The position numbers were made by a program, and so were the translations under genes. The notes under the pieces are model-generated. The model saw only the letters and a list, made by a program, of their open reading frames with translations, was not told the DNA's origin and searched no databases. This document shows, one piece after another, positions 1 to 35,512 of a stretch of DNA of 35,512 nt; within the stretch, counting starts at the first letter, position 1, and every line of letters starts with the position of its first letter. Origin of the DNA: a virus; IMG/VR virus record IMGVR_UViG_3300034198_004995, positions 1-35,512 of that record; one strand, written 5' to 3'.

Positions 1-1
1 T

Positions 2-517
2 ATTGATGATGAGTTTTTAGAATGGTTTGTAAAGAATCCAAGTTGTGAGTATGCTGAAGTTGAAAAATACTTTCACGAAGTTGGAGATACTTTTGACTAT
101 GAAATCATCATTCCACAAGAAGAACCTAAACTTACAAATGTTTGTATAAAATGTGGTGTAGATTTATATTATGCAGATAATTTTGCTTGTCAAGAACATC
201 CTAAAAATTGTAAAGGTATTCATCTTTCAGAAGAAACTTTAAAAGAAAGAGCATTAAAAGAAGAACCTAAACAATATTCAAAAGTATTATCAGAAAATGG
301 AAATGAATTATTTTTTGATAAAGATGGTTACTTGTTAAAAGAAGAACCTAAACAAAAAACACTTGAAGAATCTTGGGAAGATATTTCAAAAGAATTTGAA
401 ATATTTTACAATAAACAAAATCAACTTTACAGAATAGAAAATACTCCTACTTATTCTTTTTTTATATTTTTAAAAGAGAATTACACTTTACCAACAAAAA
501 AAATTACAGTAAGATGA
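2..517 (+). CDS. C-terminal part of a hypothetical protein with EEPK repeats (5' part at 35376)
   Basis: This frame is open from the first bases of the window, so the gene starts upstream. Joined to the frame that leaves the right end (35376..35512), it continues in phase and gives one protein of about 217 residues. The visible part has a possible metal-binding cluster, a CxxC at bases 143-154 followed by further Cys and His residues up to about base 213. It also has three copies of an E-E-P-K motif, two of them preceded by K and followed by Q. The stop overlaps the next start as ATGA at 514, so the genes are probably translationally coupled. From memory, similar modular proteins (ITSDEEIKEG segments, IDDEFLEW segments, EEPKQ linkers) occur in flavobacterial phages without a known function. 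No function is assigned. Confidence 0.75.
   Translation: MDDEFLEWFVKNPSCEYAEVEKYFHEVGDTFDYEIIIPQEEPKLTNVCIKCGVDLYYADNFACQEHPKNCKGIHLSEETLKERALKEEPKQYSKVLSENGNELFFDKDGYLLKEEPKQKTLEESWEDISKEFEIFYNKQNQLYRIENTPTYSFFIFLKENYTLPTKKITVR
254..355 (+). repeat. In-frame direct repeat within the EEPK gene
   Basis: The 21-base segment at 254-274 recurs exactly at 335-355, 81 bases (27 codons) later and in the same reading frame, encoding the repeated LKEEPKQ stretch. A shorter relative lies at 118-131. The repeat is probably an internally duplicated linker in the protein, not a regulatory site. Confidence 0.8.
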
Positions 518-1593: not shown

Positions 1594-1944
1594 ATGCCAA
1601 AAGAGGGAGATATAAATAATCCGAATGGAAAGGGAGGTTTTGCTGATAATCCACAAAACAGAGCTAATGGTAGATGGTCTAAAGATACTTCTATTAGTTA
1701 TTGGTATAATCACTTAATTCGTTTAGATTTGAAAGAATTTAAAGAGTTTAATCCTACAACAATGGCGCAAGACCTAGCTTATAAAGCAGTTGTTGAAGCA
1801 CAATTAGAATTAAATTATTTAAAAGAAATTACAGATAGAACAGAGGGCAGACCTAACCAACAAACCGATATAACCACAAACGGAAAAGAGCTAACTGTTC
1901 CTACGACTATCCAAGTGGAAATAGTAAAACCTGATGAAGATTAA
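1594..1944 (+). CDS. Probable terminase small subunit
   Basis: It lies immediately upstream of, and overlaps by 11 bases, the large terminase gene, the usual position of TerS. The N-terminus (NGKGGFADNPQNRANGRW) resembles the Gly/Asn/Arg-rich start of DUF5681-type proteins found at this place in other phages. The middle (residues about 45-90) is predicted helical and could contain the DNA-binding and oligomerisation part. TerS selects viral DNA and regulates the large subunit. The call rests mainly on position. Confidence 0.65.
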   Translation: MPKEGDINNPNGKGGFADNPQNRANGRWSKDTSISYWYNHLIRLDLKEFKEFNPTTMAQDLAYKAVVEAQLELNYLKEITDRTEGRPNQQTDITTNGKELTVPTTIQVEIVKPDED

Positions 1945-3127
1945 AGGAACGCCAGTATTTCAAAAGAATTGGGAAGCATTAAATAGCAACCAATACAAAT
2001 ACATAATCAATAGCGGTTCTTCTCGTTCTAGTAAAACCTTTTCAATTATTCAAATATTTTGGATATTGGCGTGGACTAAAGAACGTACAAAACTAGCAGT
2101 ATTTAGAAATACTAAAAAAGACTGCAAAGATACAATCTTACAAGATATGCTTAAATACTATCCTACTTTAGATAATTGGGATAGTATTAAGTATAATAAA
2201 ACAGAAAGTACTCTGACATTTCCAAACGGTTCAACAATCTTTATTGAGGGGACAGATGACGAGTTAAAAGTACACGGTTATCATTCGGATTACCTTTGGT
2301 TTAATGAAATCTACAAAGTACCTTTAGAAGTGTTTAACCAATTAGATATGCGTTGCAATGGTTCTGTATTTCTTGACTATAACCCTATTGGCATAATGTG
2401 GAGCGATAACTTACTAAAGCAAGACAACGCAATAGTAATTCATTCTACATTTAAAGATAATCCTTTTGTCCCTTTAGAGCAGAAAAAGAAAATACTATCT
2501 TATGAGCCTACCGAGTACAATATCGAGCAGAAAACCGCAAGTGATTACCTTTGGACTGTTTACGGTTTAGGTTTAAAAGCTGAAAAACCTAATAGGATTT
2601 TTAAAGGTTGGGAAACAATGAGCGACAAGATGTTTTATGATTTGCCTTATCCAATGTATTACGGTATGGATTTCGGATTGTCAGCTCCGAGTACAGTTAT
2701 AGCAATGAAATTTGATGGCGATAGGACTTTTTTCTTTCACGAATTACTATACAAGCCAATGAATAAGATGCAAGGCACGTTATCAGAGGAATTAATTAAT
2801 CTAGGAATAGATAAAAGATTAGAGTTAATTTGTGATAGTTCAAACGAAATAAACGAAACAGAGGGTAGAAAGCTAAGAAATAGCGGTTTTAATGTAATAT
2901 TTGCTCTCAAAGGAAAAGGAAGTGTAAAGTCTGGAATAGAGTTATTACAAAAGAAAAAAGTAATTTATACCAATACCAGCACTAACTTAGAAAGCGAATA
3001 CGAGCAGCATTCGTGGCGTGTAGTACAAGGATTACAACTAGACGAACCCGAACAAGGGAACGATCACGCTATTGACGCTTGTAAATATGTTGCGAGTTGG
3101 TACGCAAGAACAAGAAGATTAACATAA
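1934..3127 (+). CDS. terL: Terminase large subunit (PBSX type)
   Basis: DNA-packaging motor with ATPase and nuclease domains. The Walker A motif GSSRSSKT is at residues 28-35 and the Walker B segment LWFNE at 121-125, with E125 as the catalytic glutamate. The RNase H-like nuclease domain shows three acidic positions: D246 in YYGMDFG, D301 in LICDSS and D377/D381 in NDHAIDA. At 397 residues it is close to the length of PBSX-family terminases. It works at the portal vertex, pulling DNA into the prohead and cutting concatemers. It is followed by a 147-base non-coding stretch containing a promoter and a terminator-like hairpin. Confidence 0.93.
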   Translation: MKIKGTPVFQKNWEALNSNQYKYIINSGSSRSSKTFSIIQIFWILAWTKERTKLAVFRNTKKDCKDTILQDMLKYYPTLDNWDSIKYNKTESTLTFPNGSTIFIEGTDDELKVHGYHSDYLWFNEIYKVPLEVFNQLDMRCNGSVFLDYNPIGIMWSDNLLKQDNAIVIHSTFKDNPFVPLEQKKKILSYEPTEYNIEQKTASDYLWTVYGLGLKAEKPNRIFKGWETMSDKMFYDLPYPMYYGMDFGLSAPSTVIAMKFDGDRTFFFHELLYKPMNKMQGTLSEELINLGIDKRLELICDSSNEINETEGRKLRNSGFNVIFALKGKGSVKSGIELLQKKKVIYTNTSTNLESEYEQHSWRVVQGLQLDEPEQGNDHAIDACKYVASWYARTRRLT

Positions 3128-24806: not shown

Positions 24807-25447
24807 AGAAATTTTTAATTAAACCATTTGAGTTCAGTAGTTCCAACAAAACCTTTTTCCCATACATACCAAGCATAAGCAACAGCACTTCCACCTCCAG
24901 CAACCATCTTTTCAAATTCAGCGTTTTTTGCACACATCAGCCGAGAACTTGAAACATAAATTGTCTTTGGTGGATTTTTTAGGAATAGATTTTTTCTTCC
25001 TTTACCTTCCATAAATTGTAATTTCAAAAACATTGCAACCTTGTTTCCTGTTGGTATTATCTGCAATGCTTTTTCTACAAACTCCTGTGCATATTTGTAA
25101 GGTGGGTTTGTAATTACATCGCCATTCCATTCAAGGTTATCTATTCCTAAAAAATCTGTTTTTATTTCGCCAAATCCTCTATCCATCAAATCGCTACTCC
25201 TTACATTATATCCTTTGCTTTCAAATACCTTGCTTAAATGTCCTTCGCCACAAGCACACTCCCAAATATTTGGCGAAAATGTTTCAAGTTCTAAAAGCAA
25301 TTCGGCTGCTTTCGGTGTGGTTGCATAGTAATCTTCATTCTGCCTTTCTTTGTCAGTATGGTTGCTTGCTCCCAATGTTTTATAGATGCTGTTGCTATTT
25401 CCTGTCCAATCTTTTGTCATTTCGTTATGGTTTAATTAAAAATTTCT
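24807..25447. repeat. Inner 21-bp perfect inverted repeat around the methyltransferase gene
   Basis: The sequence at 24807-24827 is the exact reverse complement of 25427-25447 (core TTTAATTAAAAATTT). The left copy includes the last codons and stop of the methyltransferase gene; the right copy lies 6 bases upstream of its start. A perfect 21-bp inverted pair is not expected by chance around one gene, although both are AT-rich. Confidence 0.85.
24815..25420 (-). CDS. DNA N6-adenine methyltransferase
   Basis: A 201-residue methyltransferase. The SAM-binding motif I is ECACGEGHL (54-62) and the catalytic NPPY is at 105-108 (VITNPPYKYAQEF), the signature of N6-adenine methylases. The C-terminus has the AWYVWEKG segment seen in phage-type methylases. 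No separate target-recognition domain is evident, so its recognition site is probably short or set by the core. It could protect phage DNA from host restriction. It is transcribed against its neighbours, sits inside nested inverted repeats, and its last codons lie in the left inner repeat, all suggesting it arrived as a cassette. No cognate restriction enzyme is seen. Confidence 0.88.
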   Translation of the reverse strand: MTKDWTGNSNSIYKTLGASNHTDKERQNEDYYATTPKAAELLLELETFSPNIWECACGEGHLSKVFESKGYNVRSSDLMDRGFGEIKTDFLGIDNLEWNGDVITNPPYKYAQEFVEKALQIIPTGNKVAMFLKLQFMEGKGRKNLFLKNPPKTIYVSSSRLMCAKNAEFEKMVAGGGSAVAYAWYVWEKGFVGTTELKWFN

Positions 25448-31504: not shown

Positions 31505-32586
31505 TGACAAAGTATGAATATTTATTTGACGCTGACAATAAGTTAGTTCATAAATCGGAAGCAATTAGACTAAATGAATATAGGTTATATCCTGACGAGC
31601 CTTTAGATTACATTTATAAGCAAGGGGATGAAAGAGAATACTTTGCAAAAAAGATTGAAACTAACAATGTTTTTGGTTTTGTAGGATTAAAAGAGCAAGG
31701 AATTTATGGAGAATCTCCAGAGCATTATAACGCTAAAATGAAAATAGTTCACGAAAGTAAATACTTTGATACTATTTTTAATCAATGGATTGAATTTGAT
31801 TTAGTAGTTCCAGAGTTTTACCACGATATTAAAAAGAGACCAGACCTATCTTGTTATGATGCTAAAAACAAATTAGTTTGTTGTATTGAGATTTGCTGGA
31901 GTAATGCTAAAACAGAAATAGATATAATAAAACTAAAAGAATTAAAAGTTCCAATAATTGAAATACATTTAAAAGATGACAACAGATCTAAACACCTTGT
32001 ACTCACAGAAGTACTCGAATCTAACAGAGAAAAACTTAGAGTTCTTGAAAATGAACAACTTAAACTTGAAGAATCTTATAAAAGATTTTCCGAAGAAAAG
32101 AATACAGATTACTCAAGAATTATCTTTGAAATTGAAAAGTTTGAAAGAGAATCAGAGGAATATATTAAATCAAAAACTACAAAGATTAATAATTGGTTAC
32201 AAAAAAGATTGCCAGCAGATAATTCAAAGCAACGAGGAGTTTTTAAAGCTAAATTGTCAAAACAGAACAGAATCGATTTTAACCTTGAGGAAATTGATTA
32301 CTATTTACAAGAAAGACTTAAAAGATTTACAAGAGAACCAAGCGTTGCAGTTGCAATTAAAGAAACTGAAAATAGAATATCAAAATCAAAACTTAACAAT
32401 GAAAAACTTGATTATAGAATCGGAAAACTTGAATCAGAAATTGAATCAGTTAAATCAGAGCTTACAGAAAGAAGAAATGCTTTTAATAAAATTGCAGAAA
32501 AAAGCAAAATTGAATGGTTTAGAAATAATTGGATAATAAATAAACCACAAAATTTAATTCAGGAAATAAAATACTGGCTATGCTAA
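31504..32586 (+). CDS. CoiA-like nuclease domain with long coiled coil (360 aa)
   Basis: Residues about 70-160 resemble the competence protein CoiA: PEHYNAKMKIVHESKYF, then RPDLSCYD (D114) and CCIEICWSNAK (E129), a PD-(D/E)xK-type arrangement in which the usual Lys is replaced by Cys. CoiA-like proteins are linked to DNA processing. Residues 165-235 and 285-335 are coiled coils. It overlaps the primase by one base and the helicase by seven, so it is part of the replication operon. The nuclease function is tentative because of the altered active site. A long open frame in another phase (31976-32536) is read as a shadow of the A-rich coils. Confidence 0.55.
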   Translation: MTKYEYLFDADNKLVHKSEAIRLNEYRLYPDEPLDYIYKQGDEREYFAKKIETNNVFGFVGLKEQGIYGESPEHYNAKMKIVHESKYFDTIFNQWIEFDLVVPEFYHDIKKRPDLSCYDAKNKLVCCIEICWSNAKTEIDIIKLKELKVPIIEIHLKDDNRSKHLVLTEVLESNREKLRVLENEQLKLEESYKRFSEEKNTDYSRIIFEIEKFERESEEYIKSKTTKINNWLQKRLPADNSKQRGVFKAKLSKQNRIDFNLEEIDYYLQERLKRFTREPSVAVAIKETENRISKSKLNNEKLDYRIGKLESEIESVKSELTERRNAFNKIAEKSKIEWFRNNWIINKPQNLIQEIKYWLC

Positions 32587-33860
32587 CACTTCGAGATTAC
32601 CAAATAAAGCTATCAAATGAAGCCACCGATATATTAAAGCGTAAAGGATTGGTTATATTGTGCCTAGCCGTAAGAACAGGCAAGACATTAACATCTTTGC
32701 AGACAGCTGAAAATTATGGAGCTAAAAATGTTTTGTTTGTTACAAAGCTAAAAGCATTTAGCTCTATTCAATGGGATTATGACCAGATGGATTATAGTTT
32801 TAAGATAACAATTATCAATAAAGAATCGTTACATAAAGTCGATGATAGTTTTGATTTAGTTATTTTTGATGAATTTCACGGCTATTCAGCATACCCAAAG
32901 CCATCTGTATTTCAAAAGTTAGCTAGGAAAAAATATAGCCATTTGCCTATGATTTTATTATCAGGTACACCTACTCCAGAGAGTCATTCGCAATGGTATC
33001 ACAGTTTGCAATTATCAGATAACAGTCCTTTCAAGGAATACAAAAACTTTTATAAATGGGCTGCCGACTTTGTAAATGTAAAGCAGAAGAACTTAGGCTT
33101 TACCAAAATTAATGACTATTCAGATGCAGATATAAAATATATTCAAAGAAGAATTAAATATTTTATTTTAACTTTTACCCAAGCTGAATCAGGTTTTAAG
33201 ACTGAAATATCAGAGATGGTAATTGATGTTGAAATGAAGCCTATTACCTATCAAATAATTGAAAGACTTAGAAAAGATTTAGTTGTAAAAAATTCACAAG
33301 GGCAAATAATATTAGCAGACACAGCAGTAAAATTGCAACAAAAACATTTACAGTTAGCTAGTGGAACTTGTAAATTTGAAGATGGATCTAGTAAAGTTAT
33401 TGACTATTCAAAGGCTGAATATATTAGAGATAATTTTAAGGATTATAAAATAGGAATATTTTATAAGTTTAAGGAAGAATTAAATATGCTAAAAGAAATT
33501 TTAAAAGATAAACTTACAACAGATTTAGATGAATTTAATGAAACTGACAAATGGATTGCCTTGCAATTTCAAGCAGGGAAAGAAGGAATTAGTCTTAAAA
33601 AAGCTAATTATATTGTTGCATTAAATATTGATTTTAGTAGCTCAACTTACTGGCAATTCAGGGATCGTATGGGTACTTTAGACAGAACAGAAAATCAAAT
33701 ATTTTGGTTATTTTCAAAAGATAATGGAAAAACAAAGTCTATTGAAAGAATGGTTTACAAGAGTTTGATGAACAAAAAAGATTTCACTCTTGATTTGTAC
33801 AAAAAAGATTTTGGAATTTCAGATAAAATTAAAAAAACATTTAGTAGAATTAATAGATAA
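32580..33860 (+). CDS. SNF2/DEAD-like helicase (426 aa)
   Basis: A superfamily-2 helicase. Motifs: RDYQ (5-8), Walker A AVRTGKT (30-36), DEFH (97-100), LSGTPTPES (127-135), and in the second lobe GISLKKANYIVALNIDFSSS followed by WQFRDRMGTLDRT, which corresponds to the conserved motifs V/VI (Q..R..R). It is shorter than chromatin SNF2 proteins, as usual for phage members, which often accompany a VRR-NUC nuclease. The VRR-NUC gene lies just downstream but separated by an HNH gene. Likely role: remodelling or branch processing of phage DNA. Confidence 0.85.
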   Translation: MLTLRDYQIKLSNEATDILKRKGLVILCLAVRTGKTLTSLQTAENYGAKNVLFVTKLKAFSSIQWDYDQMDYSFKITIINKESLHKVDDSFDLVIFDEFHGYSAYPKPSVFQKLARKKYSHLPMILLSGTPTPESHSQWYHSLQLSDNSPFKEYKNFYKWAADFVNVKQKNLGFTKINDYSDADIKYIQRRIKYFILTFTQAESGFKTEISEMVIDVEMKPITYQIIERLRKDLVVKNSQGQIILADTAVKLQQKHLQLASGTCKFEDGSSKVIDYSKAEYIRDNFKDYKIGIFYKFKEELNMLKEILKDKLTTDLDEFNETDKWIALQFQAGKEGISLKKANYIVALNIDFSSSTYWQFRDRMGTLDRTENQIFWLFSKDNGKTKSIERMVYKSLMNKKDFTLDLYKKDFGISDKIKKTFSRINR

Positions 33861-33866
33861 TTTTGT

Positions 33867-33874
33867 ATCTTTGA
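33867..33874 (+). promoter_or_regulatory. Promoter element before the HNH leader
   Basis: TATCTTTG matches TAnnTTTG, six bases after the helicase stop. The leader structure begins eight bases downstream. Confidence 0.55.
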
Positions 33875-33881
33875 AAAAGCG

Positions 33882-33955
33882 AGTACGACCGCTATCAAAA
33901 AATTATTACAATTCCCGATTATTTAGAGTGTCGTACCTCTTTTTAATCGGGTTTT
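33882..33955 (+). ncRNA. Leader RNA with interleaved helices before the HNH gene
   Basis: GAGTACGAC (33882-33890) pairs with GTCGTACCTC (33930-33939), with one bulged C. The terminator stem CCCGATTA/TAATCGGG (33914-33921/33944-33951) is followed by TTTT. The right strand of the first helix lies in the 22-base terminator loop, as in the two other leaders. The ATG at 33969 follows. Confidence 0.6.
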
Positions 33956-33968
33956 ATATTTTAATATT

Positions 33969-34451
33969 ATGGAAGTTTGGAAACAAATAAAAAATTATGA
34001 AAATTATCAAGTATCTAATTTTGGAAATGTAAAAAGTTTAAATTTTAATAAAGAAAAAATTTTAAAAATTAGATTTTTACCTACTGGTTATTGCAGAGTT
34101 AATTTATGCAAAAATAACAATGCTTTTGATTTTTATATTCATCGACTTGTTGCTGATGCTTTTTTATTAAAATTAAATAACAGTTTTCAAGTGAATCATA
34201 TTGATGGAAATAAATTAAATAATAGAATTGAAAATTTAGAATGGTGCAATCAAAGTGAAAATATGCTTCACTCTTATAAAATAGGATTAAATAAAATAGG
34301 AGAAAATAACAGTAAATCTAAATTAAGCAATAATGATGTTTTGGAAATAAAAAATAGTTCTTTATCATATACTGAATTATCTAAAATTTTTAATGTTAGT
34401 AAATCTTTAATTTGTTTAATTAAAAATGGTAAAAAAAGAATTTTATGTTAG
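33969..34451 (+). CDS. HNH homing endonuclease with NUMOD4 and HTH
   Basis: Residues 3-24 match NUMOD4 (VWKQIKNYENYQVSNFGNVKSL). The HNH catalytic part has H58 in the FYIHRLVADAF segment, then VNHIDGNKLNNRIENLEWCNQSENM (H77, D79, N94). Residues 118-156 form a C-terminal HTH-like segment (SYTELSKIFNVSKSLICLIKNGKK) typical of DNA-binding homing endonucleases. Such selfish genes cut DNA at intron- or gene-free sites and insert there. It interrupts the helicase and VRR-NUC pair and overlaps the latter by seven bases. No intron is evident. Confidence 0.9.
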   Translation: MEVWKQIKNYENYQVSNFGNVKSLNFNKEKILKIRFLPTGYCRVNLCKNNNAFDFYIHRLVADAFLLKLNNSFQVNHIDGNKLNNRIENLEWCNQSENMLHSYKIGLNKIGENNSKSKLSNNDVLEIKNSSLSYTELSKIFNVSKSLICLIKNGKKRILC

Positions 34452-34708
34452 AAAGCAAAATCCAAAGCAAAATAATTAAAAAATTAGAGCTACAAGGTTA
34501 TTTTGTAATAAAATTAATATCTACAAATAAAAACGGCATTGCTGACATCATAGCCTTAAAAGATGGCAAAACAATTTTTATAGAAGTTAAGCAGCCAAAT
34601 GGCGTTTTATCTGAATTGCAAAAGTTAAGAATTAAGCAATTAACGGATTTAGGTTTTGATTGTAAGGTCTGGACAGACTATGAGGTAGATTTTATGTTAA
34701 ATAATTAG
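34445..34708 (+). CDS. VRR-NUC nuclease (87 aa)
   Basis: A compact VRR-NUC domain: E3 near the N-terminus, GIADIIALKDG (G31, D34) and FIEVKQPNGVLSELQK (E47, K49, Q59). In phages, this small nuclease is often adjacent to an SNF2-like helicase, as here on the other side of the HNH gene; it may cut branched DNA. The start overlaps the HNH stop by seven bases. The 51 bases after it contain a weak promoter candidate. Confidence 0.85.
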   Translation: MLESKIQSKIIKKLELQGYFVIKLISTNKNGIADIIALKDGKTIFIEVKQPNGVLSELQKLRIKQLTDLGFDCKVWTDYEVDFMLNN

Positions 34709-35154: not shown

Positions 35155-35379
35155 ATGGATATTTCAAAATGCAACGATAATTTTTGTCCCTCAAAAGAAA
35201 TTTGTTATCGGTTTACTGCGCCAGCAGGATTTAGACAAGCATACATTAACACAAACAGAGAGTGCGATGCTTACAACTGCGATTTATTTTGGCACAATGG
35301 CACTTGTAAATATTGCGGACAAAAAGAGGGAGTTCACAAAATGAGCTGCGAAACTAGAAAAATACAAATAAACTTATGA
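35155..35379 (+). CDS. Cysteine-rich zinc-binding-like protein (74 aa)
   Basis: Cys at 6, 11, 17, 37, 42, 51, 54 and 65 and His at 61. C51, C54, H61 and C65 resemble a CCHC zinc knuckle, and the others could hold a second metal or disulfides. Zinc-bound small proteins in phage early regions often modify host functions; this is only inference. It overlaps the next start as ATGA (35376). Confidence 0.6.
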   Translation: MDISKCNDNFCPSKEICYRFTAPAGFRQAYINTNRECDAYNCDLFWHNGTCKYCGQKEGVHKMSCETRKIQINL

Positions 35380-35512
35380 AAAACATACATAAAATAGGAA
35401 AAGAATTGTTCATTACTTCTGATGAAGAAATTAAAGAAGGAGTTGACCAATGGTATTTAGATAAAGTACTAAATGAACCTTACAACTCAGGAGGAGCACA
35501 ATACTCCTCAAA
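35376..35512 (+). CDS. 5' part of the junction-spanning EEPK protein
   Basis: Opens MKNIHKIGKELFITSDEEIKEG and runs off the right end after 45 complete codons plus two bases. Adding base 1 of the window completes the codon (aat) and puts the frame exactly in phase with the open frame at 2-517. The joined protein has about 217 residues. The ITSDEEIKEG and EEPK segments are, from memory, typical of one kind of flavobacterial phage protein, which supports a single gene. Starts in ATGA overlap. Confidence 0.75.
   Translation, partial: MKNIHKIGKELFITSDEEIKEGVDQWYLDKVLNEPYNSGGAQYSS

Follow-up and report, generated by a model that had tools for sequence, protein, structure and literature searches.

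The ends of a nearly whole, circularly mapping siphophage contig are probably two halves of one gene parted by a short assembly gap

A relative of Baltic Flavobacterium siphophages

The Baltic Flavobacterium siphophages hattifnatt9-1 and snusmum6-1 (MN812207 and MN812234; PMC7077304) have genomes of about 39 kb, and the structural genes of the hattifnatt9-1 record follow the order terminases, portal, structural protein, capsid. CheckV calls a contig complete when it has a direct terminal repeat of 20 bp or more, or an inverted terminal repeat (PMC8116208). The CheckV paper also traces odd-length end repeats to assembler k-mers that remain when the template is circular, and the isolators of the Baltic Flavobacterium phages likewise relied on this sign (PMC7077304).

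The sequence analyzed here, called the window, is the whole 35,512-nucleotide stretch of IMG/VR record IMGVR_UViG_3300034198_004995. Its capsid protein is 85% identical to those of the two cultured phages, and its structural genes are arranged as in hattifnatt9-1. These are the hallmarks of hattifnatt/snusmum-type siphophages, and judged by them, the window belongs to a new phage of ordinary type that is related to the Baltic isolates. The cultured records contain no relative of the protein encoded across the ends of the window (the junction protein). The window has the genes expected of a whole siphophage (terminase, portal, capsid, tape measure, lysozyme, primase/helicase, helicase, and nucleases), no tRNA genes were found, and its length falls inside the range of its relatives (35.0 to 38.2 kb). 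The following genes lie toward the two ends.

1594-1944, + strand: putative small terminase subunit, assigned by position
1934-3127, + strand: large terminase subunit (PF04466, 4.7e-15; phrog_2, 9.1e-29)
32580-33860, + strand: helicase (Pfam/PHROGs)
33969-34451, + strand: NUMOD4/HNH endonuclease (Pfam/PHROGs)
34445-34708, + strand: VRR-NUC nuclease (Pfam/PHROGs)

Elsewhere, a − strand gene (24815-25420) that lacks a Pfam match at 0.01 has an NPPYK motif and resembles by eye a phage DNA adenine methyltransferase; it sits in the sole 2-kb stretch with a negative GC skew.

The gene map is circular in the closest relatives

Closer relatives were recruited via the large terminase gene. Two genomes of 35 kb, G001 (3300042890_001861) and G002 (3300027764_000002), have the structural gene order and genome size of the window (large terminase, 85% identity; capsid, 86 to 88%); in G002 the early block is on the other strand. 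A third genome, G003 (IMG/VR 3300012664_000377; 37,534 bp), displays the gene order of the window round the circle (large terminase, 83%; capsid, 87%) but differs from it in the middle module of the junction protein, in several tail and early genes, and in its cut point. Unlike the window, G001 and G002 carry no copy of the junction gene, which is also absent from G004; its presence at this locus is therefore not fixed in the group.

In G003, homologues of genes 32580 and 34445, of both parts of the junction gene, and of genes 1594 and 1934 are consecutive in one stretch, with the junction gene whole between the VRR-NUC gene (the 34445-34708 homologue) and the terminase genes. Because their genes adjoin in G003, the two ends of the window are neighbors. 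The adjacency seen in G003 led us to reject mere coincidence and a longer linear fragment as explanations. With the circle closed, the genes from 32580 to 34708 (helicase, NUMOD4/HNH, and VRR-NUC) stand upstream of the terminase, and the order helicase, VRR-NUC, terminase is the same in G001, G003, and G004. End repeats of 127 bp (G001 and G002) and 51 bp (G003) were observed, and the cut points of the three genomes differ on the common gene map; that of G001 falls within the homologue of gene 22990. The adjoining of the end genes in relatives and the assembly of relatives as circles cut at different points support a circular gene map for the window.

The contig ends join in phase

The junction gene is divided between the two ends of the window.

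35376-35512, + strand: N-terminal part of the broken junction gene; ATG at 35376, 45 codons and 2 bases
1-517, + strand: C-terminal part of the junction gene; starts IDDEFLEWFVKNPSCE, stop at 515-517

If the ends are joined directly, the 'aa' of the right end and the 't' of base 1 give the codon 'aat' and a frame of 217 residues. The first-pass annotation had described this in-phase continuation (35376-35512 into 2-517), and we reproduced it on the window sequence. It had also taken the two pieces for parts of one protein, and relatives indeed carry both parts in one family. We then compared the join with random ones and counted spanning frames of at least 100 amino acids. They arose in 27.5% of random internal joins within the window; when the real right end was paired with a random left point the share was 22.5%, and when a random right end was paired with the real left end it was 32%. 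Chance spanning frames are this common (22 to 32%) on so densely coded a strand; therefore, the in-phase join says little by itself, and the phase match of the ends, taken alone, is weak evidence. No terminal repeats of 6 to 399 bases, direct or inverted, were found in the window, and the CheckV end-repeat sign is thus absent from it.

A conserved block is missing from the direct join

An IMG/VR search with the joined protein as the query returned 279 relatives, 80 of which were fetched. The right-end piece, KNIHKIGKELFITSDEEIKEGVDQWYLDKVLNEPYNSGGAQYSS, matched the N-terminal part of the family, and the left-end piece matched the part that follows; homologues of the N-terminal module (QWYLDKVLNEPYNSGGAQYSS) were present in L003, L004, L006, L008, L009, L017, and others. 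The two pieces are never adjacent in the relatives. Between them lies a KQDVIILTTDQDLIKDGVQA-like block, which is the most conserved block of the family and is absent from the direct join. This 20-residue block precedes the DDEFLEWF core in all 11 relatives with a QWYLDK module, and it was found upstream of the core in 87 of 87 distinct core copies (86 by pattern and 1, IILTDNKDLIKDGVQSI, by eye). The contiguous block reads IILTTDxxLIxDGVQAIDDEFLEWFVKNPSCE; its right half is present from window base 1 on, whereas its left half is absent, as expected if there is a gap.

The DNA of the relatives gave the size of the missing stretch. In L003, L004, L006, L009, L010, and L017, exactly 57 bases separate the counterparts of window base 35512 and window base 1. 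Window 1-39 occurs exactly in eight IMG/VR records, where it is preceded eight times by the conserved block ending TACAAGC and never by the right-end sequence of the window. Neither the exact right-end 37-mer nor the exact pattern of both ends with a gap of 42 to 72 bases was found in any IMG/VR record, so diverged relatives served for measuring the gap. Since 57 bases are a multiple of three (19 codons), the phase survives at the join.

Comparison with these homologues suggests that the right-end 'aa' probably opens a Lys codon and that the 't' of window base 1 probably closes an Ala codon (GCT). Judged in this way, the junction codon 'aat' is not real; it would be an artefact composed of the start of the Lys codon and the last base of the Ala codon. 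The 217-residue protein lacks the conserved 19-codon (57-base) stretch found in homologues and is most likely an artefact; the intact protein would probably comprise about 236 residues (45 + 20 + 171). We infer that the join lacks about 57 bases and that the genome measures about 35.57 kb rather than being complete at 35,512 bases. The first-pass annotation had proposed a complete circular genome of 35,512 bases. The order in G003 and the relatives cut elsewhere support the circular map; completeness is not supported, given the 57 bases that appear to be absent. An in-frame join of contig ends can hence be right on circularity yet wrong on completeness, and the gap at such a join can be measured by comparison with homologues.

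Alternative readings of the contig ends

The same gene stands at both ends, the gene order is circular, end repeats are absent, and the spacing in relatives is 57 bases. We consider it very probable that the window is one contig holding a nearly whole, circularly mapping tailed-phage genome, that its ends are the halves of one gene, and that about 57 bases were lost at a shared segment where the assembly stopped. If the spacing of the relatives applies, the gap in the window's own phage would be just 57 bases; against this figure, the family is multi-copy in some large phages, and a second copy in the gap would enlarge it.

Such a second copy is the basis of an alternative in which each end belongs to a separate copy of a multi-copy gene and a few hundred to a few thousand more bases are missing (one more copy, perhaps with neighbors). 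Family copies do occur side by side in G008 (nine matches, at least six of them strong), G007 has four matches, and the genomes of G003 and G004 carry 2 to 3 kb more sequence. However, the window contains no further copy, and we regard this alternative as unlikely because G003 has a single copy and a similar spacing, with about 3.09 kb from VRR-NUC to the large terminase compared to about 2.85 kb in the window (57 bases added). It is highly improbable that the window is complete, with ends that join directly and a phage protein shortened by 19 residues. The direct join is in frame, but this explanation demands a deletion of exactly the block that is kept in all 87 family copies, and both borders of that deletion would have to coincide exactly with the contig ends; moreover, closed assemblies usually carry an end repeat (G001 to G003; PMC8116208), and the window is without one. 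Finally, we give almost no credence to the ends being unrelated fragment ends of a larger element (a prophage or a longer phage) that match in phase by chance: chance spanning frames are common (22 to 32%), but the two pieces match adjoining parts of one family, and the modules expected of a 35- to 38-kb siphophage are present in the window.

The break falls in a DNA block shared by many phages

The preferred reading, a gap of about 57 bases within one gene, places the break in the following feature.

1-60, + strand: right part of an approximately 110-bp DNA block common to many phages, delimited by per-base majority identity

The majority identity (10-base means) was 0.80 to 0.98 between positions −50 and +49 relative to window base 1, compared to a background of 0.42 to 0.50 in the flanks, and exact core 21-mers were common to up to 76 of 81 copies. 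From this profile, the approximately 57 missing bases would be the left part of the shared block. The most likely cause of the break would be an assembly fork at the shared segment. When several phages of one sample carry the segment, the assembly graph would fork there, and the assembly would halt on either side of this short stretch, which differs little between phages. The 309-kb genome G007 (L020; a 309,177-bp record) begins inside the same conserved block, the terminase relative L089 stops no more than 77 bases from the core, and the start of L077 lies about 64 bases ahead of the core.

The core of about 110 bp is kept at the DNA level in window 1-60 and in L002 to L081, rare codons included (ATC ATC CTA ACA ACA GAC), and its flanks are strongly variable. 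The mean pairwise codon identity of the core was 0.78 versus 0.54 predicted from codon usage, with related copies unweighted. As a lead only, this synonymous conservation would fit recent phage-phage exchange or a constraint on the DNA. More speculatively, and with considerable doubt on our part, the core of this unnamed multi-copy family, with its synonymous sites kept, could be a recombination handle for module swaps between phages, and the same property would break assemblies.

A widespread, uncharacterized gene family

The junction protein belongs to a widespread, uncharacterized phage family, and metagenome assemblies seem to break at its genes. Neither Pfam nor PHROGs gave a match to the family, the INPHARED set of 50,697 phage records contained no relative of the junction protein, and a literature search yielded no paper naming the family motif. 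Six contigs with the family were found in bacterial genomes, all of them MAGs. A structure model of the junction-protein domain (mean pLDDT, 73; pTM, 0.56) had no match in the PDB, and a search of BFVD matched only uncharacterized proteins of uncultured phages. In the 319-kb phage record G008 (L016), at least six strong family copies lie within about 12 kb (108105-120307) in an array-like arrangement. A Cys-rich module of the junction protein (window 118-240; EEPKLTNVCIKCGVDLYYADNFACQEHPKNC) is nearly identical in L002, which comes from a 114-kb phage record. The module may bind zinc, as its cysteines suggest, and it looks exchangeable.
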